This document shows, one piece after another, positions 691 through 22,121 of a DNA stretch of 38,568 bases (positions are counted from its first letter, which is position 1; the number at the start of each line of letters is the position of its first letter). The stretch spans positions 1 through 38,568 of the forward strand of contig JACQXX010000033.1 in the NCBI GenBank assembly GCA_016208495.1, given 5' to 3'. This stretch comes from Acidobacteriota bacterium. Lineage in GTDB: Bacteria > Acidobacteriota > Blastocatellia > Chloracidobacteriales > Chloracidobacteriaceae. A model generated the notes under the pieces. It had not been told where the DNA came from. It worked only from the letters and a program-made list of their open reading frames with translations, and searched no databases. Position numbers and translations under genes: made by a program.

Positions 691-1773
691 ATGAGTTTAA
701 AAGTTAATTGGGAACGGTATATGAAAAAAGCTGGTCTTTGGTTGCCTTACAGTATCTGCTCACTTCTTTTGTTACTGCTGAATATTTCGCCAACTGACGG
801 TTGGAATCATTCACAACGCAAAAACAAATTGAAAACATCAGCAGATATACTGACAGATGCTGTCAATAAAGGTGACTTTGCTGCGGTTAAGAAAGTGCTT
901 CAATCCGGAAACATCAATGCCAGAAATAGCCAGGGAGAAACTGCTCTCATTGTTGCCACCCTAAAAAATGACTTTGAGATGGTAAAATATTTGCTTTCTA
1001 TCGGAGCAAATGTGAACCAGGAAATTGAACATCCGACACAACGCCGCTCAAAAAAAGACAATTGTGATTGTCCACCAATTGATGTTGGGGCAACTCCGCT
1101 CATTTATGCGAGAGATCAGAAAATTGTGCGATTGCTGCTTGATGCTGGAGCAGATGTCAATGCACGTACCTCTGATGGAGATACAGTATTGATAAGAAGT
1201 GCCAGTTACGCAAGTCGTGAAGTGATAGGCGCATTGTTGAACGCCGGGGCAAATGTCAATTTACAAAACACTACTGGTGATACAGCACTCCATTCCGCTG
1301 CATTTAATGGCCGCAGCGATATTCTCCAAATGTTGCTTGGTGCCGGAGCAACGGTGGACACCTCAGATATCGGAGGGTATACAGCACTTATCTGGGCCGC
1401 CAGCAACAACCACGGTGAGGCGGTGAGAGTTCTTCTCAAATTTGGCGCAAATATGAATGCGGCCAATAACGATGGATATACCGGACTGATACTCGCGACG
1501 GTTCACGGATATCAGGAAACGGTTAAAGTGTTGATAGAAGCCGGGGTGGATTTGAATATTCAAACGAAGGAGAAAGGTTATAGCGCGCTCCATATTGCAG
1601 CACTTAACGGACACGAGCCGGTCGTTGAAACCTTGTTGACAGCCGGAGCGGATACAATGCTTAAAACCAAGAATCGGGAAACGGCACTTCAGATTGCCGA
1701 ACGACGGAATGCAGAGCGGCGCGGGTTTGCTGGGATTGTCCGATTGCTTCAGTCTGCAAATACAAGAAAGTAG
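691..1773 (+). CDS. exported ankyrin-repeat protein
   Basis: A 360-residue protein with a hydrophobic stretch near the N-terminus (SICSLLLLLLNI), then ankyrin repeats from about residue 50 to the end. Repeat signatures are easy to see: GETALIVATLKNDFEMVKYL, GDTALHSAAFNGRSDIL, GYTALIWAASNNHGEAV, GYSALHIAALNGHEPVV, each with a following LL..GA. turn. About eight repeats are present, so the mature part should be one elongated protein-binding solenoid, probably outside the cytoplasm. An in-frame ATG at 721 gives a cleaner signal peptide (MKKAGLWLPY...); the first ATG has AAGG a few bases upstream, so both starts are possible. No neighbour points to a partner. A binding role is known for the fold; the target is unknown. 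Confidence 0.85.
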   Translation: MSLKVNWERYMKKAGLWLPYSICSLLLLLLNISPTDGWNHSQRKNKLKTSADILTDAVNKGDFAAVKKVLQSGNINARNSQGETALIVATLKNDFEMVKYLLSIGANVNQEIEHPTQRRSKKDNCDCPPIDVGATPLIYARDQKIVRLLLDAGADVNARTSDGDTVLIRSASYASREVIGALLNAGANVNLQNTTGDTALHSAAFNGRSDILQMLLGAGATVDTSDIGGYTALIWAASNNHGEAVRVLLKFGANMNAANNDGYTGLILATVHGYQETVKVLIEAGVDLNIQTKEKGYSALHIAALNGHEPVVETLLTAGADTMLKTKNRETALQIAERRNAERRGFAGIVRLLQSANTRK

Positions 1774-2134
1774 CCAAACTCGCTTGATGGTTGTTTCATT
1801 GTTGCCCAAGAAGTTTCGGCTCTTTGGTATTTGCCGTGAACCCCAGCTTTTTGAGCAAAACCTACGCCTGTAAATTTTTTAGAACCAACCTCTGTTTTTG
1901 AGGTTATATTCCTGCTTCTACCGGATTTTGTGTTATGCCAGGTCAACGTTGGAAATAAAGAACTTGTCAGTACCACCCGCGTCAGTGGGTGGGGTTAGAA
2001 GCAAGCCAGCCCACCCACTGACGCGGGTGGTACTGACTGATTGGCTCTTCTGATTTGTCTCCAACACAAAATCCGGTAGAAGCAGACTTATTTCCCTGTC
2101 TGATTTTCGGGGAGCATTATAGCCCAAAGTGGTA
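1774..2134. other. intergenic region with a nested palindromic element
   Basis: Convergent intergenic region between the ankyrin gene and the QueA-like gene. A small 6-bp hairpin (AACCTC/GAGGTT) occurs near 1888-1906. The rest is dominated by the nested inverted repeat listed separately. No credible coding frame was seen. Confidence 0.7.
1912..2085. repeat. 174-bp nested inverted-repeat (MITE/REP-like) element
   Basis: The outer arms 1912-1934 and 2063-2085 are perfect 23-bp reverse complements (left arm starts CTGCTTCTACCGG). Inside them, 1966-1993 and 2010-2037 are a second perfect pair of 28 bp (core ACCCGCGTCAGTGGGTGGG) with a 16-nt loop. The whole can fold as a cruciform or a long RNA hairpin. 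It lies between two convergent genes, so it may end transcription in both directions. No clear target-site duplication was seen. The two independent perfect arm pairs argue for a mobile or REP-type element rather than a plain terminator. Confidence 0.8.
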
Positions 2135-3169
2135 TTACCCAACGTGAGGCAAAATCAGGCACAAATCCCCAAACTCATGGCTGAGATACCCTGTTTGTTG
2201 GGCATGGAACATGGCTGCTTTCAGTAACGGTTCATCCACAAAACAGCCCAACAACCGGAAATGGGTTTCCGTGGCTTCATGCATTCCAGAGAGAATCCCA
2301 TCAACCACCTGCCGCTGAATTCCTGGATGCAAGATCAAATCAGTCATCCCGGTTCCAGCGACCAGTTTTCCATGGGTGGCATAATTTCCTTCAAGTGCCC
2401 GAGTCACCGAAGTTCCAATCGCAATCACCCGTCCGCCCTGTTCCTGGGTTGAATGGATTGCCTCAATGGTCGCGGGTGGAATGTCATACCGCTCTGGAAG
2501 TGGAAGCATCGCATCCAGCACCGGGTCACCGCTGGCTGAAATCCCGGCGGCGTGGGTGAGCGCCGCCAGGTTCACTCCGTGGCGCATCAGGTCAAGCAGA
2601 AGTTTCCATTGAAGTGATTTCCCCGCTGAGGGCATCTCCATCGCCCAGGGGCGCGAGGCATAGGCGGTCTGCACATCCCACAATTCCAGGTCGCTATTCA
2701 GATGCGAATACTGGATTGGATGCCCGGCTCGATACATTTCGCGCCACGTCGCGGACTCATCCAGATTGAACTCAAGCTCCACACTCCGAGGTGATAAAAC
2801 AGAAGTTTCAAGGACGTATGCCTGGAGCGGTGAACCTTCAATCTGTAATCGTGCCCCGGCTTTTAAAATCGGCGGGTTCACCCGGTCTTCCGTGCGAGTT
2901 CGCCAGTTTCCTGCGCCCAGGAGAACCGCCAGGAACCGGGTCCCGTGCTGGTGGCAAATCAGTCGAACCTCAAGCTGCTCCTTTGCTTCAGTCTGGGCAA
3001 AAAAGGAGGCGGGCACCGTTGCCGCATCATTAACAATGACCAGATCGCCGGGATGTAAAAAACTGGTCAGGTCGGCCACCTGGGCATCTGTCCACGATTG
3101 GGTTGTCCCATCAATCACCAGGAGCCGATTGTCCAGCGGTTGGCTTCGTGGCCAGCGTGAAGGTTTCAT
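2135..3169 (-). CDS. QueA-like S-adenosylmethionine:tRNA ribosyltransferase-isomerase family protein (divergent)
   Basis: A 344-residue protein, close in length to QueA, the enzyme that transfers the ribosyl part of SAM to preQ1-tRNA in queuosine synthesis. Visible family blocks are LHPGDLVIVNDAATVPASFF near the N-terminus, MPSAGKSLQWKLLLDLMRHG in the middle, GGRVIAIGTSVTRALEG, and DLILHPG...VVDGILSGMHEATETH near the C-terminus. Several blocks differ from classical QueA: the usual TAGLHF region and the ITLHVGAGTF and TNFHLP motifs are not recognisable. I therefore call it a QueA-family paralog and do not assign the symbol. Its ATG overlaps the stop of the upstream SDR gene in an ATGA, so the two are probably translated together. 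Confidence 0.7.
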   Translation of the reverse strand: MKPSRWPRSQPLDNRLLVIDGTTQSWTDAQVADLTSFLHPGDLVIVNDAATVPASFFAQTEAKEQLEVRLICHQHGTRFLAVLLGAGNWRTRTEDRVNPPILKAGARLQIEGSPLQAYVLETSVLSPRSVELEFNLDESATWREMYRAGHPIQYSHLNSDLELWDVQTAYASRPWAMEMPSAGKSLQWKLLLDLMRHGVNLAALTHAAGISASGDPVLDAMLPLPERYDIPPATIEAIHSTQEQGGRVIAIGTSVTRALEGNYATHGKLVAGTGMTDLILHPGIQRQVVDGILSGMHEATETHFRLLGCFVDEPLLKAAMFHAQQTGYLSHEFGDLCLILPHVG

Positions 3170-3885
3170 AACACCTCCGAAGCCAGAAACCGTGTTCCAT
3201 TGGCAATGGACTCAAGGTGTTCCAGCCGAGAAATGATTTTTTTGGCAACTGTTGCGGGTGAATCGAGGGTCGTCGGATCCGCTTCGGGCAGGGCATCAGC
3301 GTGCATTTGGGTATCCATTTCACCTGGATCAACACTGAGGACCTTGATTGGTGTTCCCTCAAACTCAGTCGCCCAAATCCGGGTCAAATGGTCCAGGGCA
3401 GCTTTACTTACGCCGTAGGCGCCCCAGTTCGGATAGGCCGACGCAGCGGCATCGGAAGAAATGTTGAGGATGAGACCTCCACCGCGCAAAACCATTGAAC
3501 CCGCCACGGCTTTGGTCAGGCGAAACGGGGCCAGCAGGTTGGTTTCCAGAACGTGGCCGAAATCTTCGCATTCGGTATCAAGCAGCAAGGGCATTGGGAG
3601 CGGCCCCAGGGTGCTGGCATTATTGATTAACACATCAACCGGTCCGGCCAGCTCTGCCGCCTGGGCGACAATCGGGTAGATGGCTCGTTTATCAGCCACA
3701 TCCGCCTGAATGGCAAAAGCGATGCCTCCCTGCTGGCGAATGATTTGAACGGTTTCTTCAAGCGAAGCTGCATCGCGGGCAACCAGGGCCAGCCGGGCGC
3801 CGCGTTCAGCCAGGTGAAAGGTCAGTGCCTGACCGAGTCCACGGCTGGCACCTGTGATCAAAATTGACTTTCCTGAATAGTTCAT
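3166..3885 (-). CDS. short-chain dehydrogenase/reductase (SDR)
   Basis: A classical SDR of 239 residues. It has the NAD(P)-binding TGASRGLG loop at residues 11-18, the structural LINNA motif at 86-90, the catalytic Ser near 143, and Tyr157/Lys161 in YGVSK. The ATG at 3885 is chosen because AAAGGAGAT lies a few bases upstream; an ATG at 3909 would add eight residues but has no such site. The last four bases overlap the start of the QueA-like gene, making a two-gene operon. An XRE-cupin regulator is divergently transcribed 92 bp away and is the natural candidate regulator. The substrate cannot be predicted from sequence. Confidence 0.9.
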   Translation of the reverse strand: MNYSGKSILITGASRGLGQALTFHLAERGARLALVARDAASLEETVQIIRQQGGIAFAIQADVADKRAIYPIVAQAAELAGPVDVLINNASTLGPLPMPLLLDTECEDFGHVLETNLLAPFRLTKAVAGSMVLRGGGLILNISSDAAASAYPNWGAYGVSKAALDHLTRIWATEFEGTPIKVLSVDPGEMDTQMHADALPEADPTTLDSPATVAKKIISRLEHLESIANGTRFLASEVL

Positions 3886-3977
3886 ACGGTATCTCCTTTG
3901 GTTGCCCATACCGTATCAGGTCTTGCCAGCAATGAAACTTTCTTGCTAATACACTGTCAAAAGGTTAGTTTCTTGTC
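3886..3977. promoter_or_regulatory. divergent promoter region between SDR operon and XRE-cupin gene
   Basis: A 92-bp gap between divergent starts must carry the promoters of both. An imperfect dyad (GCAA..GAAACTTTC..TTGC) lies around 3929-3946 and a related TTAGTTTCTTG follows near 3965. These could be operator half-sites for the adjacent HTH protein. The motif evidence is weak; the divergent arrangement is the stronger argument. Confidence 0.35.
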
Positions 3978-4544
3978 ATGAGCGAACAAACCGACATTTC
4001 AACCAATTTAGCCGCCAACATCAGGCGATTGCGTGAGTTGCGCGGAGCAACCCAGGACAGGCTGGCCCAACTTTCGGGCCTTCCCCGGCCAACCTGGGCC
4101 AATCTTGAATCAGGTTCGGCCAATCCAACCGTTTCGGTCCTGGTCAAAGCCGCCGCGACTCTTCAGGTTTCAGTCGAGGAACTCATCAGCCCGCCCCGAT
4201 CTGAAGGCCGGCTCTATCACGCGACTGAAATTCCGATCAAAAAACGGGAAGGTGTAACAGTGCGCAAACTCCTGCCTGATTCGCTGCAAAACATGGAGCT
4301 TGACCGGATGGAGCTTCCGCCCCGGTCACGAATGAGCGGCGTGCCGCACCGTCCCGGCACCCGCGAATATCTGACCTGTGAAACGGGACAGGTGGAAATT
4401 GCGCTGACAGGTGAAAAATGGATCCTTCAGCCAGGCGATGTTTTTGTCTTTCGGGGCGATCAACGTCATTCTTATTTCAATCCGGGGGATGAAACGGCGA
4501 TTGCCTACAGTGTGATTTTGCTTGGTGCTCAAGGGCCATTTTGA
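3978..4544 (+). CDS. XRE-family HTH regulator with C-terminal cupin domain
   Basis: A 188-residue protein. Residues 10-65 form an XRE/Cro-type HTH (IRRLRELRGATQDRLAQLSG, then RPTWANLESGSANPTVSVL). Residues about 110-185 form a small cupin barrel, seen in HRPGTREYLTCETGQVEI and LQPGDVFVFRGDQRHSYFNPG. This is a standard architecture for regulators that bind a small ligand in the cupin and DNA through the HTH. The gene is divergent from the SDR/QueA-like operon and probably controls it and itself. The ligand is unknown. The start fits the domain boundary, though the nearest AAGG is about 13 bases upstream. Confidence 0.88.
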   Translation: MSEQTDISTNLAANIRRLRELRGATQDRLAQLSGLPRPTWANLESGSANPTVSVLVKAAATLQVSVEELISPPRSEGRLYHATEIPIKKREGVTVRKLLPDSLQNMELDRMELPPRSRMSGVPHRPGTREYLTCETGQVEIALTGEKWILQPGDVFVFRGDQRHSYFNPGDETAIAYSVILLGAQGPF

Positions 4545-4608
4545 ATTGTATAAAGTGGCTGATTCCTTTTAGAAATTCCACAAATCATAGCCCGGAATTC
4601 CAAAGCAC

Positions 4609-4644
4609 TTTTAACCACGAAATACACGAAATACACGAAAAAAC
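4609..4644. repeat. dispersed ACCACGAAATACACGAAA repeat, copy 1
   Basis: Tandem ACACGAAAT-type units preceded by TTTTAACC. The same arrangement recurs at 11628-11658 and 23199-23232, each time outside genes. Here it lies just before the preferred start of the next gene, which argues that the upstream part of that open frame is not coding. Confidence 0.75.
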
Positions 4645-4681
4645 ACTTCCAATATCAATCGCTCAGTCAATTCAAGGCAAG

Positions 4682-5569
4682 ATGCTTATGGCCAACTTTT
4701 CCAAAATCCGATGTCTGGGGTTGGTTCTGATCTTCCTGGTGGTCTTCCATCCTGGCTGGCGTGCCAGTTCCACATCGGTTCAGCATCGCCGATCTCTGGG
4801 ATGTTCACCAAAGGCGCTGACTGCGTACAGACCGATTCCCCAACTGGACTATCCGTGTGAAAGCCACCCGGAAGACAATTTGAACAATCCCGAGCGTGCC
4901 GAAGCATTGGAAGCGTACCTGACGGAGCTTGAAACCACCTTTTCGGATCCAAACTGGTGGGCGGTTTCAGTTGCCGAGCTGAATGTTTGTTCGATCACCA
5001 ACCAGGTTCGCCGGATGACGGCCAGTGAACGCGAGATGCTTGAATACACCACGTATCTTTATGGGGATCATTCGACACGATTGGTCGTCAGTGTGGATCC
5101 GTGCATCTGGTACAGCAGCAACACCTTAAATGGGTTTATCCTGCACCGGGTTGGCAGGCAGGTTGTGGCAACCCTGGTGCTTGATGCCTTTTACACCCGG
5201 TTGGACAAAGCCGTTGACTTCCATCTGGCGCATCACAACGGTGAAAAGCTTATTTTTGTGTATTCAAATACCTCGGATGGGTCTATGCCGCCAACGTTGT
5301 TTACCACTTGCACGGTGTATACGATTGATCCAAAGAGCCACCGGGCCACCCCGAAAAAGCTGTTTCAAGACGAAAAAGGAACGGTGACGAATCAGTTTGA
5401 GTGGAATGGGTATGTATTTGAAGATGAGAAATTAGCCAACCAGTGGTACGCTCCAAAAATTGTTCACAAGGGTCGGTTGAGTCAACGGTTCACCATCTGC
5501 ACACCAATCAACCATCGGATGACCTATTCGACCTATACCTGGAACGGAAAGTACTTTAAGCTCAAATAA
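4682..5569 (+). CDS. exported protein of unknown function
   Basis: About 295 residues from the preferred start. The frame is open from 4541, but the first 47 codons run through an intergenic repeat, while ATGs at 4682 and 4688 have AAGG just upstream and open a good signal peptide (CLGLVLIFLVVFHPGWRAS). The mature part is rich in aromatic residues with several Cys (YPCESHPEDN, VDPCIWYSS, FTTCTVYTID, FTICTPI) and ends in TYSTYTWNGKYFKLK. I do not recognise a family. The mix of short beta-like segments and paired Cys suggests an all-beta periplasmic or outer-surface protein. It precedes two more unknown genes on the same strand. Confidence 0.7.
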   Translation: MLMANFSKIRCLGLVLIFLVVFHPGWRASSTSVQHRRSLGCSPKALTAYRPIPQLDYPCESHPEDNLNNPERAEALEAYLTELETTFSDPNWWAVSVAELNVCSITNQVRRMTASEREMLEYTTYLYGDHSTRLVVSVDPCIWYSSNTLNGFILHRVGRQVVATLVLDAFYTRLDKAVDFHLAHHNGEKLIFVYSNTSDGSMPPTLFTTCTVYTIDPKSHRATPKKLFQDEKGTVTNQFEWNGYVFEDEKLANQWYAPKIVHKGRLSQRFTICTPINHRMTYSTYTWNGKYFKLK

Positions 5570-6631: not shown

Positions 6632-7114
6632 ATGAAACAGACTCTATCACCTGGAATCAGTATGCTGGCCGGTGTATTGGTTTTCCTTTTTATCACCTCC
6701 CAACCAGTTCCGGCGATACAGAAATATGCTCCTGTCGTTGGTCGGTGGCAGATCAAAGTGCAATTTGCGGATTCAACTTCGGAATTTGATTTTGAGACCC
6801 TTGGGGAAGGGGTTTATGGATATGGGAATGGCTCGATCTTTCTTTTAGATCCCCAAACCAGGCTGGTTGCAACGTTCCCGGCATCGTGGGACAACCACCT
6901 CGTTGACCGCATTCATATCAGCGGGGAAATCAGTTTGCCAGCAATGGCCGGGAAAAACCGGACACATGGAACGCTGGTTCTCAGAATCCATTATGAGCCG
7001 AAGAAAGGTTATGTCGGCACGGCGTTCTTTATCGGAGAAGATTTGACCCAACGCAAAGGCACGATTGAAATGAAACGGACAAAAGGGCCAGAAGAAATCC
7101 TGAAAAATCAGTAA
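6632..7114 (+). CDS. small exported protein of unknown function
   Basis: A 160-residue protein with a clear signal peptide (MLAGVLVFLFITSQPVPA) and a likely cleavage after the Ala-rich end. The mature part starts VVGRWQIKVQFADS and alternates polar and hydrophobic residues as in a beta-barrel or lipocalin-like fold (GTLVLRIHYEPKKGYVGTAFF). AAGGA lies just before the ATG. It follows the previous gene by 23 bp and is probably cotranscribed. I do not recognise the family. Confidence 0.75.
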   Translation: MKQTLSPGISMLAGVLVFLFITSQPVPAIQKYAPVVGRWQIKVQFADSTSEFDFETLGEGVYGYGNGSIFLLDPQTRLVATFPASWDNHLVDRIHISGEISLPAMAGKNRTHGTLVLRIHYEPKKGYVGTAFFIGEDLTQRKGTIEMKRTKGPEEILKNQ

Positions 7115-7150
7115 TAAGGAACCCAGAAGAAAATAAAATCCCACTGAAAT

Positions 7151-7289
7151 CGGGTTCAGGGTTCAGGGTTTCGGGGTTTCGGCGATGAAGCGACTGATCC
7201 GACGCACGATGAAGACTGGAGAACTGGCGGGTACCCTTCAACGTGGACTATTTGGCTCTGAACCCTGAACCCCGAACCCTGAACCCCGG
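7151..7289. repeat. GGGTTCAGGG-type repeats facing each other
   Basis: GGGTTCAGGGTTCAGGGTTTCGGGG at 7151-7180 is mirrored by CTGAACCCTGAACCCCGAACCC at 7258-7289 in inverse orientation, so the two can pair across a stem-loop of about 140 bases. The same unit occurs at 17909 and 31692. The 236 bases between the flanking genes hold nothing coding. Confidence 0.75.
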
Positions 7290-7325
7290 TGGTATGATAT
7301 TTCCATCCGACTCCCTAAATTTTTT

Positions 7326-7353
7326 GAAGTGCGCCGACTTGTCGGCACTTTCA
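7326..7353. repeat. short hairpin (GCCGA-CTTG-TCGGC) of a dispersed family
   Basis: A 5-bp GC stem with a four-base loop at 7333-7346, in the context GAAGTGC...ACTTTCAC. A very similar context and hairpin occurs between cbbL and cbbS (17443-17475). It sits at the 3' end of the acyl ligase gene but lacks a T-run on that gene's strand, so it is not an obvious intrinsic terminator. Confidence 0.55.
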
Positions 7354-10203
7354 CTCTTTCTGGTTCAATCCTTCATTCGCACTATTGCCACCTGGTTTTG
7401 GCCATTTCACCGTTGACAGGTCAGGTTCGGCATATTTTTCCAGAATGGCTTTGCGAGCCGCATCACGTAGCGCAATTACCGAAGTCCAGTCAGTTCCCTG
7501 TGGCACAATCGGAGGAAAAATCGTGACACGAAGGTTTCCACGGTGAGGTAACCATTGTTCATCCCGCAAAATTGACCGGGTGCCGTGTAATGCAACCGGA
7601 ACAACTGGCAATCCGGCGGTAGCCGCAGTTTTAAAGGCCCCGAGGTGAAACGCACGCAAGCCGGGTTCACGGGTGAAGGTGCCTTCTGGGAAAAAACCAA
7701 GCGACTGATGAGATCCGGCGAGCTCCTCCAACCGGGCAATGTTGTTGAGGCTCTCCTGGAAGTCAAACCGGTCAAGGTATTCGGTCCCGAGCCGGTCGAG
7801 TGCAAACCGGATCAACCAGTTTTCGGCCAGTTCTTTTTTGGCCGTAAAGCACATGTTTGGCGGCAGTACGGCCATGACCACAATCGCATCAATGTAGCTG
7901 GCGTGGTTGGCAACATACACACAGGCTTGATCCGTCGGCATGTGTTCGGCGCCGTCAACGGCAATCGGCATCCCACAAACAATCGTTACCAACCGGGCCA
8001 GCCAGCAACCATAGCGGCGTCTGAGCTTCAATGTCGGAATCACCACCAACAACAAACACGAAATCAGGACCGCCGTCACAAAAACCAGCCAGCACCAGGC
8101 CCCAAACAGGAACAAACCTGTTCGATGGATCAATGATTGGAGCGTGCCGGCGGTCTTCAATTTGAGCGCATTGAGGCGATCCCGGAATGGGCTGCGCGGT
8201 CGAAACAAATCTCCGTTCAAGTAGGCATCTCGGGTTCCAGATCGCCGAATTTTGCCGCTCGATGTTTTTAAAACTGAATGTGGCGGGGCCAAAACGATTT
8301 CATCAACGGCTGAATCCAGCAGGTGCAGTGTGGTTTGATTGATTTGGGTTCGGAGCTGTTCCAGCACTTCAGTGTCGGTTTCCCTGGTTTCAGCCACAAT
8401 CACCAGCCGTTCCGTGCCGGAATGCGCATCCGGACAGGCAAACACGGCGACACAACCAGTTCGCACCCCCGGCAAATTCCCCACGACGTCTTCAAGTTCT
8501 TGTGGATACAGGTTTCGTCCGGCGCGGATGATCATGTCCTTACTACGCCCGGCAATAAAAATTTCACCTCCCGCAATGTAGCCAAGATCTCCGGTTTCAA
8601 GCCATTCGCCGCGAAACAGGGCGGCGGTGGCCTCTGGGTTCCGAAAATACCCGATTGTTGCCGAAGGACCCCGAAACTGGATTCTGCCCTGCACCCGGTC
8701 TGGAACTTCATAGCCGAGTTTGTCCACCACCCTCGCTTCATGGTCCGGGAAAGGGAAACCACATCCGACCACCGGCATTCCGTGTGGGTCATTGGGTTGA
8801 ACGGGAATGGCCTTTCCATGTTCGGTAAACGATTGGCGGTCAATCCATTCGACATTTGGCCCACGGCCAGGGGGAGGCCCGGTGAGCCCGACGGAACACT
8901 CAGCCAACCCATACACGGGTGACATGGCCTCGCGATGAAATCCATAGGCGGCGAATTTGTGGCAGAACTGATCCATGGTTCGCGGGCTGACTGGTTCGGC
9001 ACCATTGAGCGCCATCCGCCAGCTACTCAGATCAAGCCCCTGTAAATCTTCATCCTTGATTTTGCGCAGACACAATTCATACCCAAAGTTTGGGCCCGCG
9101 GCGATGGTGCCGCGATAGTCGTGGATAGCTCTCAACCAGCGTTCTGGTCGGGCTAGAAAGTTCTGAGGCGGCATCACCACCAGAAGAGAGGCATAACACA
9201 GACTGCCCAGCCAGGCGCCGATCAACCCCATGTCATGATAGAGCGGAAGCCAGCTAATAAAGACATCGGTTGAGCTGACCTTAAACCTGGTTCCCATGGC
9301 CCGGATGTTGGCCAGCAGGTTGGCATGGCTTAAAACCACACCCTTTGGAGTGCCGGTACTTCCAGACGTGTATTGCAAAAACGCGGTATCCTGAGCGCTG
9401 ATGGAAACCATTTCCGAAGCTTCATCAGCGTGGAAAAGATCTTCAGTCGCAACAATTTCCTGGAGTGAAGCAACCTTGGATTGTAAGAGCGCGGTAAAAG
9501 GTTTCGCCTGATCGAAGGTGATCAACATCACGGCCTGTGCATTGTCGAGGATGCGAACCTGGCGCTGCAAATGATCAGCGAGCGTTGCAATCCGACTTGG
9601 CGGGTAGAGCGGAACCGGAACGCCCCCCGCATACAGACAACCAAAAAAACTGATAAAAAACTCACGGCTGGTCGTCAACATCAGCCCAACCGTCTGGTTC
9701 GGGAGCAATCCCCGACGACGCAACCCGGCGGCTATTTTCAGTGCATCCTGGTAGAGATCGGCATAGGTAATGGTTTGCCCAGTTTCATAAAATCGGATGT
9801 GGGGACGGTCGCCATGAATTTGAGCCTGTCGGCGAAGCAGTTCCGTGAGGGTTGAAATCGTATCCGGCAGTCCTTCGGTTGAGGTGGCGACTGGTTGGAT
9901 GATATCTGGCAATGATTGAGGCGGTGTCCAACTTTCGGCCTGTTTCAGAAATTTCACCAAATCCGCGGGAGTCTCAGCTTCCATCAAGGCTGATTCCGGC
10001 AGCTTGACTGAAAAAGCCTGTTCAATCCGCGACAAAAGCTCGACCCGGCTCAGGCTGTCAAACCCCAGTTCCAGGTCAAGCCGGGTATCAAGTGTAATCG
10101 AGCGGCTCATCGGACCAGAGTGGATTTCAGCGGCCACTTGTCTGACGACAGCCAGTAACCCTTCGTGAATCAATGGTTTGTCTTGACTGGATGAGGTATA
10201 CAT
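7351..10203 (-). CDS. ACP - fatty-acyl-AMP ligase - acyltransferase fusion protein
   Basis: A 950-residue, three-domain protein. Residues 10-90 are an acyl carrier domain with Ser50 in ELGFDSLSRVEL as the phosphopantetheine site. Residues about 115-690 are an adenylate-forming enzyme of the fatty-acyl-AMP ligase type (YTSGSTGTPKG at 278-288; GRSKDMIIRAGRNLYPQELE near its C-terminus). After one or two membrane-like segments (FLFGAWCWLVFVTAVLI), residues about 745-920 are a PlsC-type acyltransferase with NHASYID (His767, Asp772) and FPEGT (838-842). The order suggests activation of a free fatty acid, loading on the fused carrier, then transfer to a lysolipid or other acceptor at the inner membrane. 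It resembles Aas-type enzymes but carries its own ACP. Confidence 0.9.
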   Translation of the reverse strand: MYTSSSQDKPLIHEGLLAVVRQVAAEIHSGPMSRSITLDTRLDLELGFDSLSRVELLSRIEQAFSVKLPESALMEAETPADLVKFLKQAESWTPPQSLPDIIQPVATSTEGLPDTISTLTELLRRQAQIHGDRPHIRFYETGQTITYADLYQDALKIAAGLRRRGLLPNQTVGLMLTTSREFFISFFGCLYAGGVPVPLYPPSRIATLADHLQRQVRILDNAQAVMLITFDQAKPFTALLQSKVASLQEIVATEDLFHADEASEMVSISAQDTAFLQYTSGSTGTPKGVVLSHANLLANIRAMGTRFKVSSTDVFISWLPLYHDMGLIGAWLGSLCYASLLVVMPPQNFLARPERWLRAIHDYRGTIAAGPNFGYELCLRKIKDEDLQGLDLSSWRMALNGAEPVSPRTMDQFCHKFAAYGFHREAMSPVYGLAECSVGLTGPPPGRGPNVEWIDRQSFTEHGKAIPVQPNDPHGMPVVGCGFPFPDHEARVVDKLGYEVPDRVQGRIQFRGPSATIGYFRNPEATAALFRGEWLETGDLGYIAGGEIFIAGRSKDMIIRAGRNLYPQELEDVVGNLPGVRTGCVAVFACPDAHSGTERLVIVAETRETDTEVLEQLRTQINQTTLHLLDSAVDEIVLAPPHSVLKTSSGKIRRSGTRDAYLNGDLFRPRSPFRDRLNALKLKTAGTLQSLIHRTGLFLFGAWCWLVFVTAVLISCLLLVVIPTLKLRRRYGCWLARLVTIVCGMPIAVDGAEHMPTDQACVYVANHASYIDAIVVMAVLPPNMCFTAKKELAENWLIRFALDRLGTEYLDRFDFQESLNNIARLEELAGSHQSLGFFPEGTFTREPGLRAFHLGAFKTAATAGLPVVPVALHGTRSILRDEQWLPHRGNLRVTIFPPIVPQGTDWTSVIALRDAARKAILEKYAEPDLSTVKWPKPGGNSANEGLNQKE

Positions 10204-10395: not shown

Positions 10396-11484
10396 ATGAA
10401 TCTGATCAACGTGTTTGATTTTGAGAAGCTTGCCCAGGAAAAACTCTTTCAAATGGCATTTGATTATTATGCCAGTGGTGCTCACGATGAAATTACACTT
10501 CGGGAAAATCACTCCGCCTTTGATCGCCTGCGGTTGATGTATCGGGTTTTGATTGATGTGAGTCAACGCACTGCCAAAACCACGGTTCTGGGGCACCCGG
10601 TTTCCCTGCCGATCTTGATTGCTCCGACAGCCTTTCATCGGATGGCTCATTCGGATGGCGAAGCCGGCACGACCCGGGCTGCCGGTGCCGCCGGCACGAT
10701 CATGATTTTAAGCTCGCTCGCAAACACGGCGGTGGAAGACATTACCGCCGTTGCCACCGGTCCGGTCTGGTATCAACTCTATATCTATCGCGACCGTGAA
10801 GTGACCCGCGAAGTTGTCCAGCGCGCCGAACAGGCCGGATGCACCGCCCTGGTTTTGACCGTTGATGCCCCATTGCTTGGGCGGCGCGAACGCGATTTCC
10901 GCAACCGCTTCCAATTGCCACCAGGACTGACGGTGAGAAATGTGTTGCCAGCGGGAATCGCGGACCTTCCGAAAGAAGCGCTTGATTCCGGGTTGGCGGC
11001 CTACTTTGCCACCTTAATTGATCCGGCAGTGACCTGGAAAGACATTGAATGGTTGCGTTCGATCACCCGAATTCCAGTTCTAATCAAAGGGATTGTTCGG
11101 GCGGATGATGCGGTTCGAGCGGTGGATTCCGGAGCGGCGGGAATTGTGGTTTCAAATCACGGAGGCCGTCAGCTCGACACGTCACCCGCCACCATCGAAG
11201 TGCTCCCTGAAATCGCCGAAGCCGTTGCCGGTCGAATTGAAGTCTTGATGGATGGCGGTATCCGGCGGGGAACGGATGTGCTCAAAGCGCTGGCCCTCGG
11301 CGCCAAAGCCGTGCTCGTCGGTCGGCCAATTTTATGGGGATTAACCGTTGATGGCGAGCAAGGTGTGGCTCGTGTTTTAGAAATCCTGCGCACTGAATTT
11401 GACCTGGCAATGGCACTGGCCGGTTGTCAGTCAGTGGCGGACATCACCCGCGACCTGGTGCGGAATCCACCCCGGTTTGATTGA
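10396..11484 (+). CDS. FMN-dependent alpha-hydroxyacid oxidase (glycolate/lactate oxidase family)
   Basis: A 362-residue TIM-barrel flavoprotein of the plant glycolate oxidase/lactate oxidase family. Visible marks are YYASGAHDEITLRENHSAF at the N-terminus, LPILIAPTAFHRMAH, the YQLYIYRDR strand, the active-site SNHGGRQLD with catalytic His255, and the phosphate-binding DGGIRRGTDVLKALALGAKA. Members oxidise (S)-2-hydroxyacids and pass electrons to oxygen or, in dehydrogenase forms, to a quinone. Glycolate or L-lactate cannot be told apart here with certainty. Because a RuBisCO operon lies about 3 kb downstream, glycolate from RuBisCO oxygenation is a plausible substrate. The ATG is preceded by only a weak ribosome site. 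Confidence 0.92.
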   Translation: MNLINVFDFEKLAQEKLFQMAFDYYASGAHDEITLRENHSAFDRLRLMYRVLIDVSQRTAKTTVLGHPVSLPILIAPTAFHRMAHSDGEAGTTRAAGAAGTIMILSSLANTAVEDITAVATGPVWYQLYIYRDREVTREVVQRAEQAGCTALVLTVDAPLLGRRERDFRNRFQLPPGLTVRNVLPAGIADLPKEALDSGLAAYFATLIDPAVTWKDIEWLRSITRIPVLIKGIVRADDAVRAVDSGAAGIVVSNHGGRQLDTSPATIEVLPEIAEAVAGRIEVLMDGGIRRGTDVLKALALGAKAVLVGRPILWGLTVDGEQGVARVLEILRTEFDLAMALAGCQSVADITRDLVRNPPRFD

Positions 11485-12790: not shown

Positions 12791-14185
12791 ATGAAATCTT
12801 CTCTTCCTCCAATTTCACAAACCAAAGACACCATTCGAGTCATCCTGATTGGCGCGGGCAATGGTGGAAAATCGCTGCTGGAGATTTTTTCAGACGACCC
12901 GATGATTGCGGTTGTCGGAGTTGCGGACAAAGACGAACACGCGAGTGGATTCCGCTATGCCCAGGAGTTGAAACTCCCAGTCACGACCAATTATCGGAAA
13001 CTCGTGGCGACCACACCGGCTGATATCATTATCAATGTCACCGGAGACTCTGAAATCAGCCGGGAACTGTACACTTTAAAACCAGAACGGACCGAACTGA
13101 TCGGTGGGACAACTGCCCGGTTGATCTGTGAATTGATTTGGACAAAGAAGCAATCCCAGGCCCTGGAGGAAAAATATCAGCTTGCACTCCGTGAACTGGA
13201 AGCCTATGCCGAAACAGAGTTTATTATCGGCAATTCCCCGCAAATGAAAGAAGTTTCCCGCCTGATTACCCAGGTGGCACCAACCCCGACCACGGTTTTG
13301 ATAAGCGGCGAAAGTGGGACGGGGAAGGAACTCGTCGCTCGGGCCATTCACCGGTATAGTTTGCGGTCGTCAAAGGTTCTGGTCACGCTCAACTGCACCG
13401 CCCTTCCACCAACCCTGCTCGAAAGTGAATTGTTTGGCTACAAGCGCGGCGCCTTTACCGGTGCCTTCAAAGACCACATCGGGTTATTTGAAAAAGCGGA
13501 TGGTGGAACCATGTTTCTGGACGAAATTGGCGACATGTCGCTCGAAGTCCAGGCCAAATTGTTGCGTACCCTCCAAACCGGCGAAATTCGGGCCGTGGGC
13601 GATGTCAAATCAAAGATAGTTTCCGTCAGAATCATTGCCGCCACCAATCGCGACCTGAAAAAAACCATTGAAGAAGGTCGGTTTCGCGAAGATCTCTATT
13701 ATCGAATCAATACTTTTACGATCACGCTCCCTCCGCTTCGCGAACGGAAAGCGGATATTCCACTCCTGGCCGAATATTTTCTCCTGCGGGCCCGTGCCAA
13801 AGTGAACAAACGCGTCGAGGTCTTTTCCCCCAAAGCCCTTGAACTTCTGCGCCAGTATGGCTGGCCCGGAAATCTGCGTGAACTGGAAAACATCATTGAA
13901 CGGGCCGTGGTTTTGACCAATTCCACCATGATTGAAGCCGAACACCTTCCGATTCATGTTCAGGAAAAGAACCAGCCGCTGACACTCGAAAGAGGGTTTA
14001 TGGAGGCTAAAGCCGCCGCGATTGACCAGTATGAAAAAGAGGTACTGCTTCGCTTTTTGACCCAGGCCCGAGGCAATGTTTCGGTAGCCGCCAAAATGGC
14101 CAAACTTCCCCGGCGGACCTTCCACCGACTGCTGAGCAAACACAATGTTACGGCTGCCAGTTATAAAAGTAACAAATCAAATTGA
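12791..14185 (+). CDS. sigma-54-dependent activator with N-terminal Rossmann-like sensor domain
   Basis: A 464-residue bacterial enhancer-binding protein. Residues 14-115 look like a Rossmann-type NAD(P)-binding domain: RVILIGAGNGG at 16-26, an acidic turn after the second strand (VVGVADKDEHA), then ADIIINVTGD. A helical linker follows (about 117-142). The AAA+ core has Walker A GESGTGKE (173-180), the sigma-54 contact loop GAFTGA (220-225), Walker B GTMFLDEIGD (239-248), and FREDLYYRIN and GWPGNLRELENIIERA further on. A Fis-type HTH sits at about 428-455 (GNVSVAAKMAKLPRRTFHRL). No receiver, GAF or PAS domain is present. It is immediately upstream of the CBB genes on the same strand, and candidate binding boxes begin at its stop codon. 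Confidence 0.93.
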   Translation: MKSSLPPISQTKDTIRVILIGAGNGGKSLLEIFSDDPMIAVVGVADKDEHASGFRYAQELKLPVTTNYRKLVATTPADIIINVTGDSEISRELYTLKPERTELIGGTTARLICELIWTKKQSQALEEKYQLALRELEAYAETEFIIGNSPQMKEVSRLITQVAPTPTTVLISGESGTGKELVARAIHRYSLRSSKVLVTLNCTALPPTLLESELFGYKRGAFTGAFKDHIGLFEKADGGTMFLDEIGDMSLEVQAKLLRTLQTGEIRAVGDVKSKIVSVRIIAATNRDLKKTIEEGRFREDLYYRINTFTITLPPLRERKADIPLLAEYFLLRARAKVNKRVEVFSPKALELLRQYGWPGNLRELENIIERAVVLTNSTMIEAEHLPIHVQEKNQPLTLERGFMEAKAAAIDQYEKEVLLRFLTQARGNVSVAAKMAKLPRRTFHRLLSKHNVTAASYKSNKSN

Positions 14186-14443: not shown

Positions 14444-14850
14444 CTAAGGGATATTTGCCCCTCAAAAAAGCACTCGCTGGGTTTTTTTAAGCATTTTCAT
14501 CGAAATATCCCCACAGTGTTTGGCTTTTTGCCAGTCATAGACCTGTGTCTGGCTTCAAGTTCTGAGGCTTGCCCCACACATCTTCACACATCAGCAGGAA
14601 AATGCCATGACGACATTGCAATGCGAATGGTTACCGCTTGAGGCTTCGGCTTTGTTTGATTCAGTTTTTTCCTTATAGAAAAACCAGAACTGCATATTTT
14701 TCAATATGTCAGGTTTTTACTTCAGCAACTACCTTCAAACTGAACGTGTGATTGATTCTCGCCTCTGACGAGGCTTTTTCCTCATTGCCCGACTACAGGG
14801 GGCGTTTGGCAGGTAAACCTGGGAAGGGTGGTGAACCAAGAGTGCACTCT
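14444..14850 (+). other. long structured leader before fbp
   Basis: About 400 bases with no supported gene. It contains a hairpin at 14679-14718 (AAAAACC and CATATT arms pairing with AATATG and GGTTTTT) and a terminator-like hairpin at 14761-14779. A possible sigma-70 promoter, TTGTTT (14652) and TATAGA (14674) with a 16-bp spacer, is also present. No known riboswitch class was recognised. Confidence 0.5.
14761..14779 (+). terminator. terminator-like hairpin in the fbp leader (possible attenuator)
   Basis: GCCTC-TGAC-GAGGC stem-loop followed at once by TTTTT. It lies between the putative sigma-54 promoter and the fbp start, so it would act within the operon's own leader. The stem is only five base pairs. 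Another GAGGC at 14640-14644 could pair with the GCCTC arm instead, giving a possible antiterminator. Confidence 0.45.
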
Positions 14851-15867
14851 ATGTCTCACGACGTCATTAACATCTCAAGACACATCCTCGAACAACAGCG
14901 CCAGGCCCCAGGGGCAACTGGTGAGTTATCAATTTTGCTCAACACCCTGGCCCTGGCAGCCAAGATTAGCTCTCACGAAGTCAACCGGGCCGGGCTGGGC
15001 AATGTCCTTGGCCACGCCGGGTATCAAAATGTGCAGGGCGAGCAGGTCACCAAACTCGATATTTTTACCCATAATCTGCTGCACAGCCTGCTGGGACGCT
15101 CAGGCCAGGTGTGTGTCATGGCCTCTGAAGAAGCCGAACACCCGCTCGAAGTTCCCGAGGGCTACCCCAACGGAAAATATGTGGTGTTGTTTGACCCGCT
15201 GGATGGCTCGGCCAATTTGGAAATCAATGCCAGCGTCGGGATGATTTTTTCAGTGTTTCGGCGTGTTTCGTCCGATGGCAAGGGAACCATTGAAGATTGC
15301 CTGCAAGTTGGGAAACATCAGGTCTGTGCCGGCTATGTCGTGTATGGGGCCAGCACCATGCTGGTGTATTCGACCGGCCACGGTGTCCACGGCTTTACCC
15401 TTGACCCGGCAATTGGCGAATTTCTGCTTTCGCACGAAGATATTCGAATTCCGAAAAAAGGAACGATGTACAGCATCAATGAAGGACGTTCCAAAGGGTG
15501 GCCTCCGGGAATTGCGGAATATCTCAACAGCATTAAAAGCGGCCAGAATGGTCCGACTTACAACCTGCGCTACATTGGGGCAGCGATTGCCGATGTCCAT
15601 CGGACCCTGTTGACCGGGGGAATTTTCTTACATCCAGCCAGTGCAGCAAGCCCGAAAGGCAAGCTCCGGTTGTTGTATGAAGCCTCTCCACTGGCATTTC
15701 TGGTTGAGCAGGCTGGGGGCCGCGCTTCTGACGGAAAACGACCGATTCTGGAGATTCAACCGGAATCTTTGCACCAGCGCGTGCCAATGATCATTGGCAG
15801 CATTGACGATGTTCTCACGGCTGAACGGTTCATCCGTGAGGCCGAAGCCAAAGCACATTATGCGTGA
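14851..15867 (+). CDS. fbp: fructose-1,6-bisphosphatase class I
   Basis: A 338-residue class I FBPase that removes the 1-phosphate from fructose 1,6-bisphosphate, feeding the regenerative half of the CBB cycle and gluconeogenesis. Motifs are the metal-binding FDPLDGSANLEINASVG from residue 114, GYVVYGASTMLVYSTG, RYIGAAIADVHRTLLTGG and KLRLLYEASPLAFLVEQAGG. Length matches the family. The ATG at 14851 is chosen because the family starts here; an open frame back to a TTG at 14752 would read through a terminator-like hairpin. An in-frame GTG at 14842 with GGTGG upstream is an alternative. It is the first enzyme gene after the sigma-54-type promoter and is followed by cbbL. Confidence 0.96.
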   Translation: MSHDVINISRHILEQQRQAPGATGELSILLNTLALAAKISSHEVNRAGLGNVLGHAGYQNVQGEQVTKLDIFTHNLLHSLLGRSGQVCVMASEEAEHPLEVPEGYPNGKYVVLFDPLDGSANLEINASVGMIFSVFRRVSSDGKGTIEDCLQVGKHQVCAGYVVYGASTMLVYSTGHGVHGFTLDPAIGEFLLSHEDIRIPKKGTMYSINEGRSKGWPPGIAEYLNSIKSGQNGPTYNLRYIGAAIADVHRTLLTGGIFLHPASAASPKGKLRLLYEASPLAFLVEQAGGRASDGKRPILEIQPESLHQRVPMIIGSIDDVLTAERFIREAEAKAHYA

Positions 15868-15977: not shown

Positions 15978-17438
<1,461 letters not shown>

Positions 17439-17493: not shown

Positions 17494-17910
17494 ATGCGAT
17501 TGACACAAGGTGCATTTTCCTTTTTGCCGGATCTGACCGAAGAGGAAATCAGAAAACAAATTGACTACTGCCTTCAAAACAAGTGGGCCATCAATATCGA
17601 ATACACCGACGACCCGCATCCGCGAAATACTTATTGGGAAATGTGGGGAATGCCCATGTTTGACCTCAAAGACCCCGCCGCCATTCTGTTTGAAATGAAT
17701 GAGTGCCGAAAAGTGTATCCCGGCCATTACATCAAACTGAATGCGTTTGACGCGACCAAAGGCCGGGAAACAACCGCGCTGTCCTTTATTGTCAATCGTC
17801 CAGCGGTTGAACCGGGATTTAAGCTCATTCGACAGGAAACCACTGGTCGCACGGTTCGATACACGATCCACAGCTATGCGACCGACAAACCGGAAGGGCA
17901 ACGGTATTAG
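17494..17910 (+). CDS. cbbS: RuBisCO small subunit, red type
   Basis: A 138-residue small subunit. It starts with [19 protein letters not shown] and has [22 protein letters not shown] and the conserved YIKLNAFDA strand. The C-terminal extension (about residues 108-138, ending in [21 protein letters not shown]-like sequence) is the extra hairpin characteristic of red-type small subunits, which fills the central solvent channel of the L8S8 complex. AAAAGGAG precedes the ATG at good distance. It lies 55 bp after cbbL. Confidence 0.97.
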
Positions 17911-18075
17911 GGTTCAGGGTTCAGGGTTTTTGGAAGGGATGAGGGATGAGGGGTGAGGGATGAAAAAATCACCTTGTCAGTCGGTCATCTTGTCCGGGTT
18001 CTGGGTTTTCGAACTTTGGTCCTTTATGTCCTTTTCGTCCTTTATGTCTTTTCCCGAAACCCCGGAACCCGGCTT
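17909..18075. repeat. composite low-complexity repeat block between cbbS and cbbX
   Basis: GGGTTCAGGGTTCAGGGTTT, then GAAGGGATGAGGGATGAGGGG (17935-17967), almost the same order as at 31692-31742. Further on GTCCTTTATGTCC is repeated twice around 18020-18050, and CGGGTTCTGGGTTTTCG can pair with CGAAACCCCGGAACCCGG. No gene is seen here. Confidence 0.75.
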
Positions 18076-18086
18076 TGAGGTGCTTT

Positions 18087-19007
18087 ATGACGCAATCATC
18101 TGCCTTACAACCTGAACTGCCAGTACCCACGATTGACCTGGGGGCCACGTTGCGCGAGTCATCAATTCAGGAGCTACTGGATGAATTGGATCGGGAGTTG
18201 ATTGGGCTCAAACCGGTCAAAACTCGGATTCGGGAAATCGCCTCGTTGCTTTTGATTGAACGGATCCGCAGACAACATGGCTTAATGACTTCAGCCCCAA
18301 CGCTCCACATGAGTTTTACTGGGCGACCTGGTACGGGAAAAACCACGGTGGCCATGCGAATGGCCCAAATTTTGCACCGATTGGGCTACGTCCGCCGGGG
18401 ACACCTCGTCGTGGCAACCCGTGATGATTTGGTTGGACAGTACATCGGGCATACGGCGCCCAAAACCAAAGAAATTCTGAAAAAGGCAATGGGCGGCGTG
18501 CTGTTTATTGATGAAGCCTATTACCTGTACCGACCTGAAAACGAACGTGATTACGGACAGGAAGCCATCGAGATTTTGCTTCAAGTGATGGAAAACCAGC
18601 GTGACGACCTGGTTGTGATTTTGGCCGGGTACAAAGATCGGATGGAAACGTTCTTTCAATCCAATCCGGGGTTTCATTCCCGAATCGCGCACCATATCAA
18701 TTTTCCGGACTACACGCTTGATGAACTCATGGCAATTGCCGAATTGATGGTTCAGCAGCAAATGTACCGGTTTGACGAGCATTCAAACCGGGCGTTTGCT
18801 GAATACCTGAACTTTCGGATCCAACAACCTCACTTTGCCAATGCCCGCAGTGTGCGCAATGCCATTGATCGAATCAAATTGCGCCATGCCAACCGACTGG
18901 TCCAGCAAGGCGGGATTATTTCTCAGGAGGAACTCCTCCGCATTGATGAACAAGACGTCCGTCAAAGTCGGGTCTTTCAAAGCGGATCGGAACCACAACC
19001 GAATTGA
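18087..19007 (+). CDS. cbbX: red-type RuBisCO activase, AAA+ protein CbbX
   Basis: A 306-residue AAA+ protein that remodels inhibited red-type RuBisCO by pulling on the large-subunit C-terminus. Walker A is GRPGTGKTT (79-87), Walker [10 protein letters not shown] (138-146), followed by [20 protein letters not shown] and the pore and sensor region [19 protein letters not shown]. The length matches CbbX. The ATG at 18087 has GAGG six bases upstream; a TTG four codons earlier is unlikely. Its position directly after cbbLS is the usual red-type arrangement and confirms the RuBisCO class. The 176-bp repeat block before it suggests that it could have its own transcript level. Confidence 0.96.
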
Positions 19008-19129: not shown

Positions 19130-20134
19130 ATGAAAAGACAAAGACCAATTATTTTGGGGATTGTAGGTGACAGTGCCGCTGGAAAATCCACGCTCACCCG
19201 CGGCCTGGCTCAGCTCATTGGTCCCGAACGGGTGACCTGTGTCTGTACGGATGACTATCATAAATATGATCGGCGTGAACGGGCGGAGCACAAAATAACC
19301 GCGCTTCATCCAGACTGTAATTACCTGGATGTGTTGGAACAGCACCTGGAGCGACTTCACTATGGCCAGCCGATTCTCAAACCAGTGTATGATCATTCAA
19401 CCGGGTCGCTGGTTCGTCCTGAATATATCCAGCCGTCTGAATTTGTCATTGCAGAAGGGCTGCTTGGCTATCACTCGGCGGTCATGCGCCAATTTTATGA
19501 TGTCAAAGTCTATCTGAGCCCGCCGGAAGAACTTCGCCAGGTGTGGAAAATCAAACGGGATACCTCCAAACGCGGGTACCGACCAGAGCAGGTGCTGTTG
19601 GAACTTGAAAAACGTGAGCCGGATTCGCGGGACTTTATTCGTCCACAACGTGAGTTTGCCGATATCGTGGTTCAGTTTTATCCACCCGAAGGGGTTTCCC
19701 CCGAAGAAGCTGGCGGCGATCTCAATGTGCGGTTGATCCTGCGGCCAACCATTCGCCATCCTGATTTGACCTATCTCTCTGAAAACAAAGTCAGTTCTGA
19801 AGCTGGGGTTCGGATGAACCTGGGACGTGACAGCGGCAAACCGGTGGATATCCTCGAAATTGACGGCGGTGTTTTGAAAAACCATGCAGTTGAACTGCAA
19901 GATGCCATCTGGCGTCACCTGCCTGACGAAACGCAAATCAGTGAAAGTCAATTTGGCAATTACATTGATAATGACGACGTGCGACATAGTGCTCCGTTGG
20001 CCATTACCCAATTGCTGCTGGCCTATCATTTATTGCGTGAATATTCAGGGGAGCGAAACATGATCTTTGCCCCGCCGGTCTCAGCCTTGAGCCGTGTTGA
20101 GACGGTTTCTCCAAATCGGCGCACGGCCCGGTGA
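19130..20134 (+). CDS. prk: phosphoribulokinase, cyanobacterial/plant-like class
   Basis: A 334-residue kinase that makes ribulose 1,5-bisphosphate from ribulose 5-phosphate and ATP, the second unique CBB step. The P-loop is GDSAAGKST (13-21), then VCTDDYHKYDRRERAEHKIT, ALHPDCNYLDVLEQHLERL, KPVYDHSTG and FVIAEGLLGY. These blocks match the longer class found in cyanobacteria, plants and archaea-like lineages, not the roughly 290-residue proteobacterial class that usually accompanies red-type RuBisCO. The P-loop Cys that is thioredoxin-controlled in chloroplasts is Ala here, so that redox switch is absent. It lies between cbbX and tkt. Confidence 0.95.
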   Translation: MKRQRPIILGIVGDSAAGKSTLTRGLAQLIGPERVTCVCTDDYHKYDRRERAEHKITALHPDCNYLDVLEQHLERLHYGQPILKPVYDHSTGSLVRPEYIQPSEFVIAEGLLGYHSAVMRQFYDVKVYLSPPEELRQVWKIKRDTSKRGYRPEQVLLELEKREPDSRDFIRPQREFADIVVQFYPPEGVSPEEAGGDLNVRLILRPTIRHPDLTYLSENKVSSEAGVRMNLGRDSGKPVDILEIDGGVLKNHAVELQDAIWRHLPDETQISESQFGNYIDNDDVRHSAPLAITQLLLAYHLLREYSGERNMIFAPPVSALSRVETVSPNRRTAR

Positions 20135-20179
20135 GAATGAGTGAGCTTGAAATTTCCGAGAGAGAGAAAGGGTACAACC

Positions 20180-21952
20180 ATGACTGACCATATTGCGAGC
20201 GTTCAACAAGCAGTAATCAAAGAAGATGAACTGACGAGGCAGAGGCAGGAAGCCGCAAACATTGTGCGCGGACTGGCAATGGACGGGGTGCAGAAAGCAA
20301 ATTCGGGGCATCCGGGGATGCCGATGGGAATGGCGGAGGCGGCGGTGGTGCTGTGGAGTGGGTTTTTGAAGCACAACCCGGCAGACCCGAGGTGGGTGGA
20401 CCGGGATCGGTTTGTGTTGTCAGCCGGACACGGGTCAATGTTGCTGTACAGCCTGCTGCACGTGAGCGGGTATGAGCTGCCACTGGAGGAATTGAAGCGG
20501 TTTCGGCAGTGGGGAAGTGTGACGCCAGGGCATCCGGAGCATGGGTTGACACCAGGAGTGGAAACGACGACCGGACCGCTGGGCCAGGGGATCGCCAATG
20601 GGGTGGGACTGGCGCTGGCGGAACGGTGGGTGGGAGCGAGGTTTAACCGACCGGGACACGAGGTGGTGGATCATTTCACGTATGTGATTGCCAGCGATGG
20701 GGATTTGATGGAAGGGGTGTCGCACGAAGCCTGTGCGCTGGCGGGACATCTGGGGTTGGGAAAACTGATTGTGCTCTATGATGACAACGGAATCAGCATT
20801 GATGGACCGACGAGTCTGTCATTTACCGAAGATGTCCTGAAGCGGTTTTCGGCCTACGGTTGGCATACACAGCGGGTGGATGGGCACAATCCGGCGGCGG
20901 TGGAGAATGCGATCCAGGAAGCGCGAAACGAACCGGAACACCCATCCATCATCGCCTGTCGGACGCACATTGGATATGGGAGTCCAAACCGGCAGGACAC
21001 CAGCAAAGCGCACGGTGAGCCGCTGGGAGCGATGGCGACGCGGGCGGCATCGGGAGCGGTGCTGGATGCGATAGCGGACGTGATACCGACGCTGCTGGGT
21101 GGGTCAGCCGACCTGACGCCATCCAATAACACGCTGCCGAAAGGGAAAGGGTCAGTCACTCGCGACGATTTTTCAGGCCGGTATGTGCGGTTCGGGGTGC
21201 GGGAACACGGCATGGGAAGCGTGATGAACGGGATGGTGCTGCACGGTGGGGTACGGCCCTACGGCGGAACATTCCTGGTCTTTGCCGATTATATGCGGCC
21301 ACCAATTCGGTTGGCGGCGATGATGGAGCAACCCGTGATTTTCGTCTTCACCCACGACAGCATCGGGTTAGGCGAGGACGGCCCGACCCACCAGCCGATT
21401 GAACACCTGACGACGTTGCGGGCGATTCCCAACCTGGTGGTGTTTCGGCCCGCGGATGCCATTGAAACCGTAGCGGGCTGGAAGGTGGCGTTGGAGCGCA
21501 GGCACGGTCCCACGGCGCTGATCCTGACCCGACAGGCGCTCCCGATACTGGGCGTGGCGGAGGGAGCGCAACGCGGCGGCTACACACTGGTTGAGGTTGA
21601 CGATCCACAGGTGATCCTGATTGGCACCGGGTCGGAAGTCCAACTTGCCGTCGAAGCCCACAAACAACTGGCCACCGAAGGCATTCGGGCACGGGTCGTG
21701 TCGCTGCCAGGCTGGGAAATCTTTGATTCACAGCCAGCCGACTACAAAGAAAGCGTGCTCCCCGCCAGGATCAAAGCCCGCGTGGCGGTTGAAGCCGGCT
21801 CGCCGCTGGCCTGGAGTCGCTATGTTGGACTCGAAGGGCGAGTGGTGGGACTGAACCGGTTTGGAGCATCGGCGCCCTATCAGGTTCTCTACCAGCAACT
21901 GGGCATCACCGCCGAAGCGGTGGCCGCCGCCGCCAGGGAACTGGTTGGGTGA
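20180..21952 (+). CDS. tkt: transketolase with an internal deletion
   Basis: A 590-residue transketolase, moving two-carbon units in the regenerative part of the CBB cycle with thiamine diphosphate. Present are [28 protein letters not shown], the TPP motif SDGDLMEG...[27 protein letters not shown] and [18 protein letters not shown]. Around residue 284 the chain goes straight from HGEPLGA to MATRAASG. In ordinary transketolases about 75-80 residues lie between these points, which also explains the short total length (family about 660). The frame is intact. The ATG at 20180 has AAAGGG upstream. Third positions look unusually rich in G compared with the neighbours. Confidence 0.93.
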
Positions 21953-22121
21953 AGAACCAGCCCTGGTTTTAAAAAAGTAACTCACAGGGCTTAACTCATT
22001 TCCTGAGAGTGAATTGCGGCAATTCTTGAACCTTCAAGAATTTTCAGTTGAAGCCGGGTTGAAAGCAGGATTTTCCCTCGTTTGATCAAAGGAAACCCAG
22101 GAAAAATACCCCCAAAATAGC

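Follow-up and report, generated by a model that had tools for sequence, protein, structure and literature searches.

The last gene of the Calvin-cycle set in this acidobacterium encodes a transketolase (tkt) that lacks, in frame, the linker between the diphosphate-binding (PP) and the pyrimidine-binding (Pyr) domain. We assign a probability of roughly 0.5 to the reading that this is a real linker loss in an enzyme which, judged from its sequence and predicted structure, is probably still active. The window, which is the whole stretch of DNA analysed here, is an entire contig (C33) of 38,568 bases and belongs to a draft genome assembly of 8.38 Mb in 177 contigs. Between positions 14752 and 21952 it carries fbp-rbcL-rbcS-cbbX-prk-tkt, all on the forward strand, with tkt in the last position (Table 1). 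The gene that Pfam recognizes as an AAA ATPase is presumably cbbX, a name given from its position and size. A GTG start codon further upstream, at 20141, would make the tkt product 603 amino acids long.

Table 1. Calvin-cycle genes, domains of the linkerless transketolase and the segment shared with contig C31; positions are those of the window.
Feature	Position	Strand	Basis
fbp, fructose-1,6-bisphosphatase	14752..15867	+	Pfam
rbcL, Rubisco large chain	15990..17438	+	Pfam
rbcS, Rubisco small chain	17494..17910	+	Pfam
cbbX-like AAA ATPase	18075..19007	+	Pfam (AAA)
prk, phosphoribulokinase	19130..20134	+	Pfam
tkt, transketolase, 590 aa, without PP–Pyr linker	20180..21952	+	
PP (TPP diphosphate-binding) domain, residues 22–283, ending in HGEPLG	20243..21028	+	Pfam and alignment
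Junction A284–M285, where sampled relatives have a linker of about 80 residues	21029..21034	+	Alignments
Pyr (pyrimidine-binding) domain, residues 286–455, starting with ATRAASG	21035..21544	+	Pfam
C-terminal transketolase domain, residues 466–577	21575..21910	+	Pfam
Segment of 119 bases identical to the start of contig C31, which then diverges	21840..21958	+	

As a preliminary description of this DNA had reported, the protein passes from HGEPLGA straight to MATRAASG near residue 284 with the frame intact, and positions 20990–21080 lie within one open frame. The window protein has two residues between the G283 and A286 columns, compared to 81–90 in the 64 relatives of alignment A1 (64 of the 85 reference sequences plus the window). 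About 79–88 residues are therefore absent, slightly more than the approximately 75 estimated in that description. The Pfam Transketolase_N match covers residues 22–288 and ends at profile position 269 of 334, the Transket_pyr match starts at residue 284, and in the comparison with a full-length relative (L092) the matches stop at residue 268 of the relative and restart at its residue 353. The loss preserves the frame and reaches exactly up to the motifs HGxPLG and ATRxASG, both of which are complete in the window protein. According to our rough estimate, a random 84-codon deletion in a 2,007-bp gene would keep both motifs for about 7 of 1,755 starting points and, with one third of the lengths in frame, the observed outcome would arise by chance in about 0.1% of cases, a figure calculated after the fact for a single event. 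The linker of the relatives is not free sequence, because three of its columns (E, F, and W) are at least 90% conserved.

On the basis of family score and catalytic columns the sequence classifies as a transketolase, and the missing linker makes it an unusual variant. TIGR00232 (bacterial transketolase) reaches 817.7 bits against a cut-off of 682.25, with the match split in two stretches, and four Pfam families score above their cut-offs, PF00456, PF02779, and PF22613 being the transketolase set; the TIGR00232 and Pfam matches cover both sides and omit the linker. TIGR00204 (DXPS), at 67.4 bits against a cut-off of 465.95, falls below its family score. The usual PP–Pyr linker of about 40–80 residues is absent, but it is a usual rather than a defining feature of transketolases, since a split-gene transketolase is active without it (see below). 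Nor are PP and Pyr-C on separate chains, as they would be in a split-gene enzyme, for the protein is encoded in one open frame of 590 codons. The catalytic motifs on both sides, already described as retained, are indeed intact: the columns that are invariant over 65 sequences include H44, H84, H118, N203, H278, R288, E342, H404, and R451 of the window protein. We take these columns to be TPP- or substrate-binding, as is usual for the family. The other basis for their roles is PMC4601599, where both His263 and Arg357 appear among the listed substrate-binding residues; by their motifs, these two probably correspond to H278 and R288. Of 160 columns with a conservation of 90% or more, the window protein deviates in 2 (range among the 64 relatives, 0–19), and its conserved sites show no decay.

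No other linkerless tkt was found in the orthologous operons, in the best 80 loci or, at E ≤ 1e-120, in the 395 other genomes of the phylum. A genome of the same order (G012) has rbcL-rbcS-cbbX-prk-tkt and one of the same class (G046) has cbbX-prk-tkt, each in identical order and with a full-length tkt. The orthologues at the operon position are about 74–76% identical to the window protein and belong to other genera, the window's own genome being the one that represents its genus; a full-length protein in close relatives at this locus, which the preliminary description had named as a refutation, was thus found only in a loose sense of close. Loci L120–L122, from other genomes of the phylum, have matches to prk and to tkt, the latter in open frames of 701–718 codons. 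All of the 80 loci, which are the best 80 of at least 581 pattern-matching stretches, span 68–109 residues more than the window protein over the matched range (74 matched in two pieces, and six in a single piece that contains the additional residues). In the phylum survey, 8 of 396 genomes had a match at E ≤ 1e-120, and the window's own was the sole one-piece match across both sides; this threshold, with three candidates scored per genome, may have let a linkerless gene of high divergence escape. Moreover, 57 of 58 relatives gave a match and, among the matches listed, no other with at least 50% identity spans both sides in one piece. Among the 15 of 720 plasmid records listed, every match is in two pieces and no gene is linkerless. 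Among the titles and abstracts listed in literature searches, none describes a one-chain transketolase without a linker, although one may still be in print. The reference set of 85 leaves out L021, whose ORF covered 272 query residues only, and L095, L097, L100, and L101, which had no plus-strand match; alignment A2 consists of 43 of the 85 references and the window row, with L092 as first sequence. The tkt of the relative L017, an Acidobacteria locus, ends a stop-free frame of 1646 codons (2–4939), which may be a fusion or a chance open frame. A phylum member, G216, has an identical frame and nearly identical match coordinates, which makes Acidobacteriota the probable phylum of the window.

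The best PDB sequence matches of the window protein are bacterial transketolases of the TIGR00232 type (2e6k of Thermus thermophilus and TktA of E. coli, 1qgd), which share its domain order, catalytic columns, and predicted chain arrangement, but differ in the linker, as counted above for the 64 relatives. The split-gene transketolase of Carboxydothermus hydrogenoformans (6yaj, 6yak), which was found by sequence, resembles it in having PP and Pyr without a linker, but consists of two separate chains, whereas the window encodes one continuous chain; the sequence match is also weaker (156 and 85.4 bits vs. 762 for 2e6k). According to PMC7661550, this split-gene enzyme is active without the PP–Pyr linker as a tetramer built from two kinds of chain, and a linker of about 70 residues is missing from it as well as from DXPS and PDH. 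DXPS is thus, like the window protein, a single chain without this linker; its TPP site is described as lying between domains of one monomer, in contrast to the site between monomers in transketolase (PMC7661550). The human transketolase linker is given as 39 residues vs. 77 in M. tuberculosis (PMC3352088). In such human-type short transketolases (3mos, 4kxu) the linker is shorter but still present, unlike in the window protein, and the superposition with the window model has 27% identity and a Z of 38.9 at best.

Structure prediction of the shortened enzyme, which had been suggested as a further check, gave a divided answer. With alignment A1, the best AlphaFold2 model has a pLDDT of 92.0 and a pTM of 0.92, with 89–90 in blocks around the junction, and speaks for the favored reading; the other four, with pLDDT values of 85.6, 83.6, 82.9, and 82.5, speak against it. 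All five models of the full-length control L092 range from 93.4 to 91.7 on a shallower alignment (45 vs. 65 rows). The deletion thus costs model confidence, as four of five models fall while the control stays high. The best model superposes on the transketolase chain 8qmf_B over 570 residues at 1.2 Å (Z 49.1), which shows the domain placement and not the closure at residues 284–285, and its top Foldseek match is 2e6k. The predicted placement of the domains within the chain is the usual one for transketolases, to which the model is biased by an alignment made up of linker-bearing proteins. The 50 structural matches listed contain no DXPS entry, a result with which a DXPS-like fold is still compatible.

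In the reading that we favor, a single recent or tolerated deletion would have taken out the helical bridge of tkt. The PP, Pyr, and C-terminal domains would then still assemble as a dimer with TPP at the PP/Pyr interface, as in the linker-free split-gene transketolase, and the linkerless single-chain enzyme would act in the Calvin cycle alongside Rubisco and phosphoribulokinase, whose genes directly precede tkt. Activity could be kept despite the loss because the transketolase linker is not known to contain a catalytic residue. We counted in favor of an active linkerless enzyme the in-frame and flush ends, the low number of conserved-site deviations (2/160), the nearest neighbor shared by both halves (L091), the conserved operon position, the best model, the split-gene precedent, the shorter human linker, and flank repeats of at most eight bases; counted against it were the single instance, the conserved E, F, and W columns, the drop in four of five models, the second tkt, and contig C31. 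The preliminary description had left a natural enzyme, a damaged copy, and an assembly collapse side by side; the natural enzyme is now favored, though not proven, by the flush in-frame ends, the undecayed conserved sites, and the high confidence of the best predicted fold. If active, the protein would indicate that a one-chain transketolase needs no helical linker, offer a natural test of the interconversion between transketolase (site between chains) and DXPS (site within the chain), and provide a compact scaffold for biocatalysis. In the split-gene study, the missing linker is suggested to leave room for bulkier substrates (PMC7661550).

Within the favored reading of a real loss in an active enzyme, the arrangement of the active site could take two forms. 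Firstly, the loss may have rewired the enzyme such that the junction connects each PP domain with the Pyr domain that completes the same active site, which would create a DXPS-like within-chain site in a true transketolase. Such a site would be possible because H278 of HGEPLG and R288 of ATR, the equivalents of which reach a common active site from two separate monomers in ordinary transketolases, are now ten residues apart in the chain, but we regard it as improbable, and hold to the same low degree that this version would be a natural step between the transketolase and DXPS architectures. Secondly, the usual between-chain site could be retained with a directly closed chain, as predicted in the best AlphaFold2 model.

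Somewhat unlikely is that the loss is real but damaging, i.e., a recent in-frame loss after which the enzyme is weak or inactive and which the cell tolerates since another gene supplies transketolase. A second tkt, for which the preliminary description had proposed to search the genome, is indeed present on contig C116 as a full-length open frame of 747 amino acids with about 54% identity to the window protein, and the cell is therefore not dependent on the short tkt for transketolase as such. Damage would also agree with the uniqueness of the linkerless form among those sampled, with the removal of near-invariant residues along with the linker, and with the lower AlphaFold2 confidence in four of five models. 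However, no second lesion accompanies the loss, as the frame is open and the conserved sites are nearly all kept, and a damaged copy gives no reason for in-frame, motif-flush ends, which have a probability of about 0.1% in our rough estimate. The neighbors of the C116 gene, with translations read by eye, are a 6-phosphogluconate-dehydrogenase-like frame and a frame of 960 codons (L006 11960–14842) that resembles a fusion of transaldolase and glucose-6-phosphate isomerase.

Unlikely, and more so than damage, is a strain mixture or assembly artefact, in which the linker was lost by the joining of reads or the window holds a minor allele, while the organism has a full-length cbb-type tkt. This explanation draws on contig C31 (6,727 bases), in which the 3′ end of tkt is continued differently. 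After the 119 shared bases, C31 continues with 173 strongly palindromic bases absent from the window, then with 105 bases (293–397) of 96% identity to window positions 21959–22064, and then with unrelated sequence, where frames read by eye like parB, parA, and a TnpB-type protein. At its end, 141 bases are identical to the start of contig C91. Both 119 and 141 are k values of MEGAHIT, and overlaps of these lengths, typical of graph branches, fit a multi-k de Bruijn assembler of this kind. We infer that the assembly graph branches just after tkt and that the tkt 3′ end occurs in two versions, owing either to a second copy or to different strains. They lower the confidence in the contig, though the linker is not directly concerned, and keep alive the strain-variant or assembly option. 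In addition, a fragment with the linker alone could have been too short for the minimum contig size of the assembly. On the other hand, the flanks of the junction share no exact repeat longer than eight bases (329 bases compared on the left and 371 on the right), which makes a simple repeat collapse, as one form of the assembly collapse considered in the preliminary description, unlikely, and a contig through the junction should need reads that carry the junction k-mers and the absence of a strong competing branch. A search with full-length L092 found no displaced cbb-type linker fragment elsewhere in the genome, and, short dispersed repeats aside, no second operon copy was found among the 40 of 1081 first-look candidates that were scored. 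An artefact, too, gives no reason for in-frame and flush ends. None of the genes downstream of tkt in the window or in C31 matches L110 or L111, and either continuation of tkt could be the older. If the loss were an artefact, it would warn that a draft contig may lose sequence in frame and so mimic a biological change.

A chimera of two lineages was rejected, because FastTree phylogenies of the two halves (open frames above 750 aa trimmed to their last 750 residues) place L091 as nearest neighbor of both, with modest clade supports of 0.739 for the N half, where L120–L122 are included, and 0.916 for the C half.

The third-position composition of tkt (20180–21949) is odd for its gene set, with G3 0.48 and GC3 0.66 in the N half and G3 0.41 and GC3 0.72 in the C half, compared to G3 0.26–0.29 and GC3 0.51–0.58 in prk, cbbX, rbcL, and fbp; tkt may differ in its history from the other genes of the operon. 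The window also contains dispersed, palindrome-rich repeats that recur dozens of times across the genome, at 7113–7319 and at about 17906–18072, where they occupy the gap between rbcS and cbbX. Directly upstream of the Calvin-cycle genes, Pfam identifies an FMN-dependent dehydrogenase, possibly of the glycolate or lactate oxidase type (10396–11484), and a sigma-54 activator-type regulator (12791–14185). A single frame of 950 amino acids on the reverse strand (7351–10203) combines AMP-binding, phosphopantetheine, and acyltransferase domains (Pfam).
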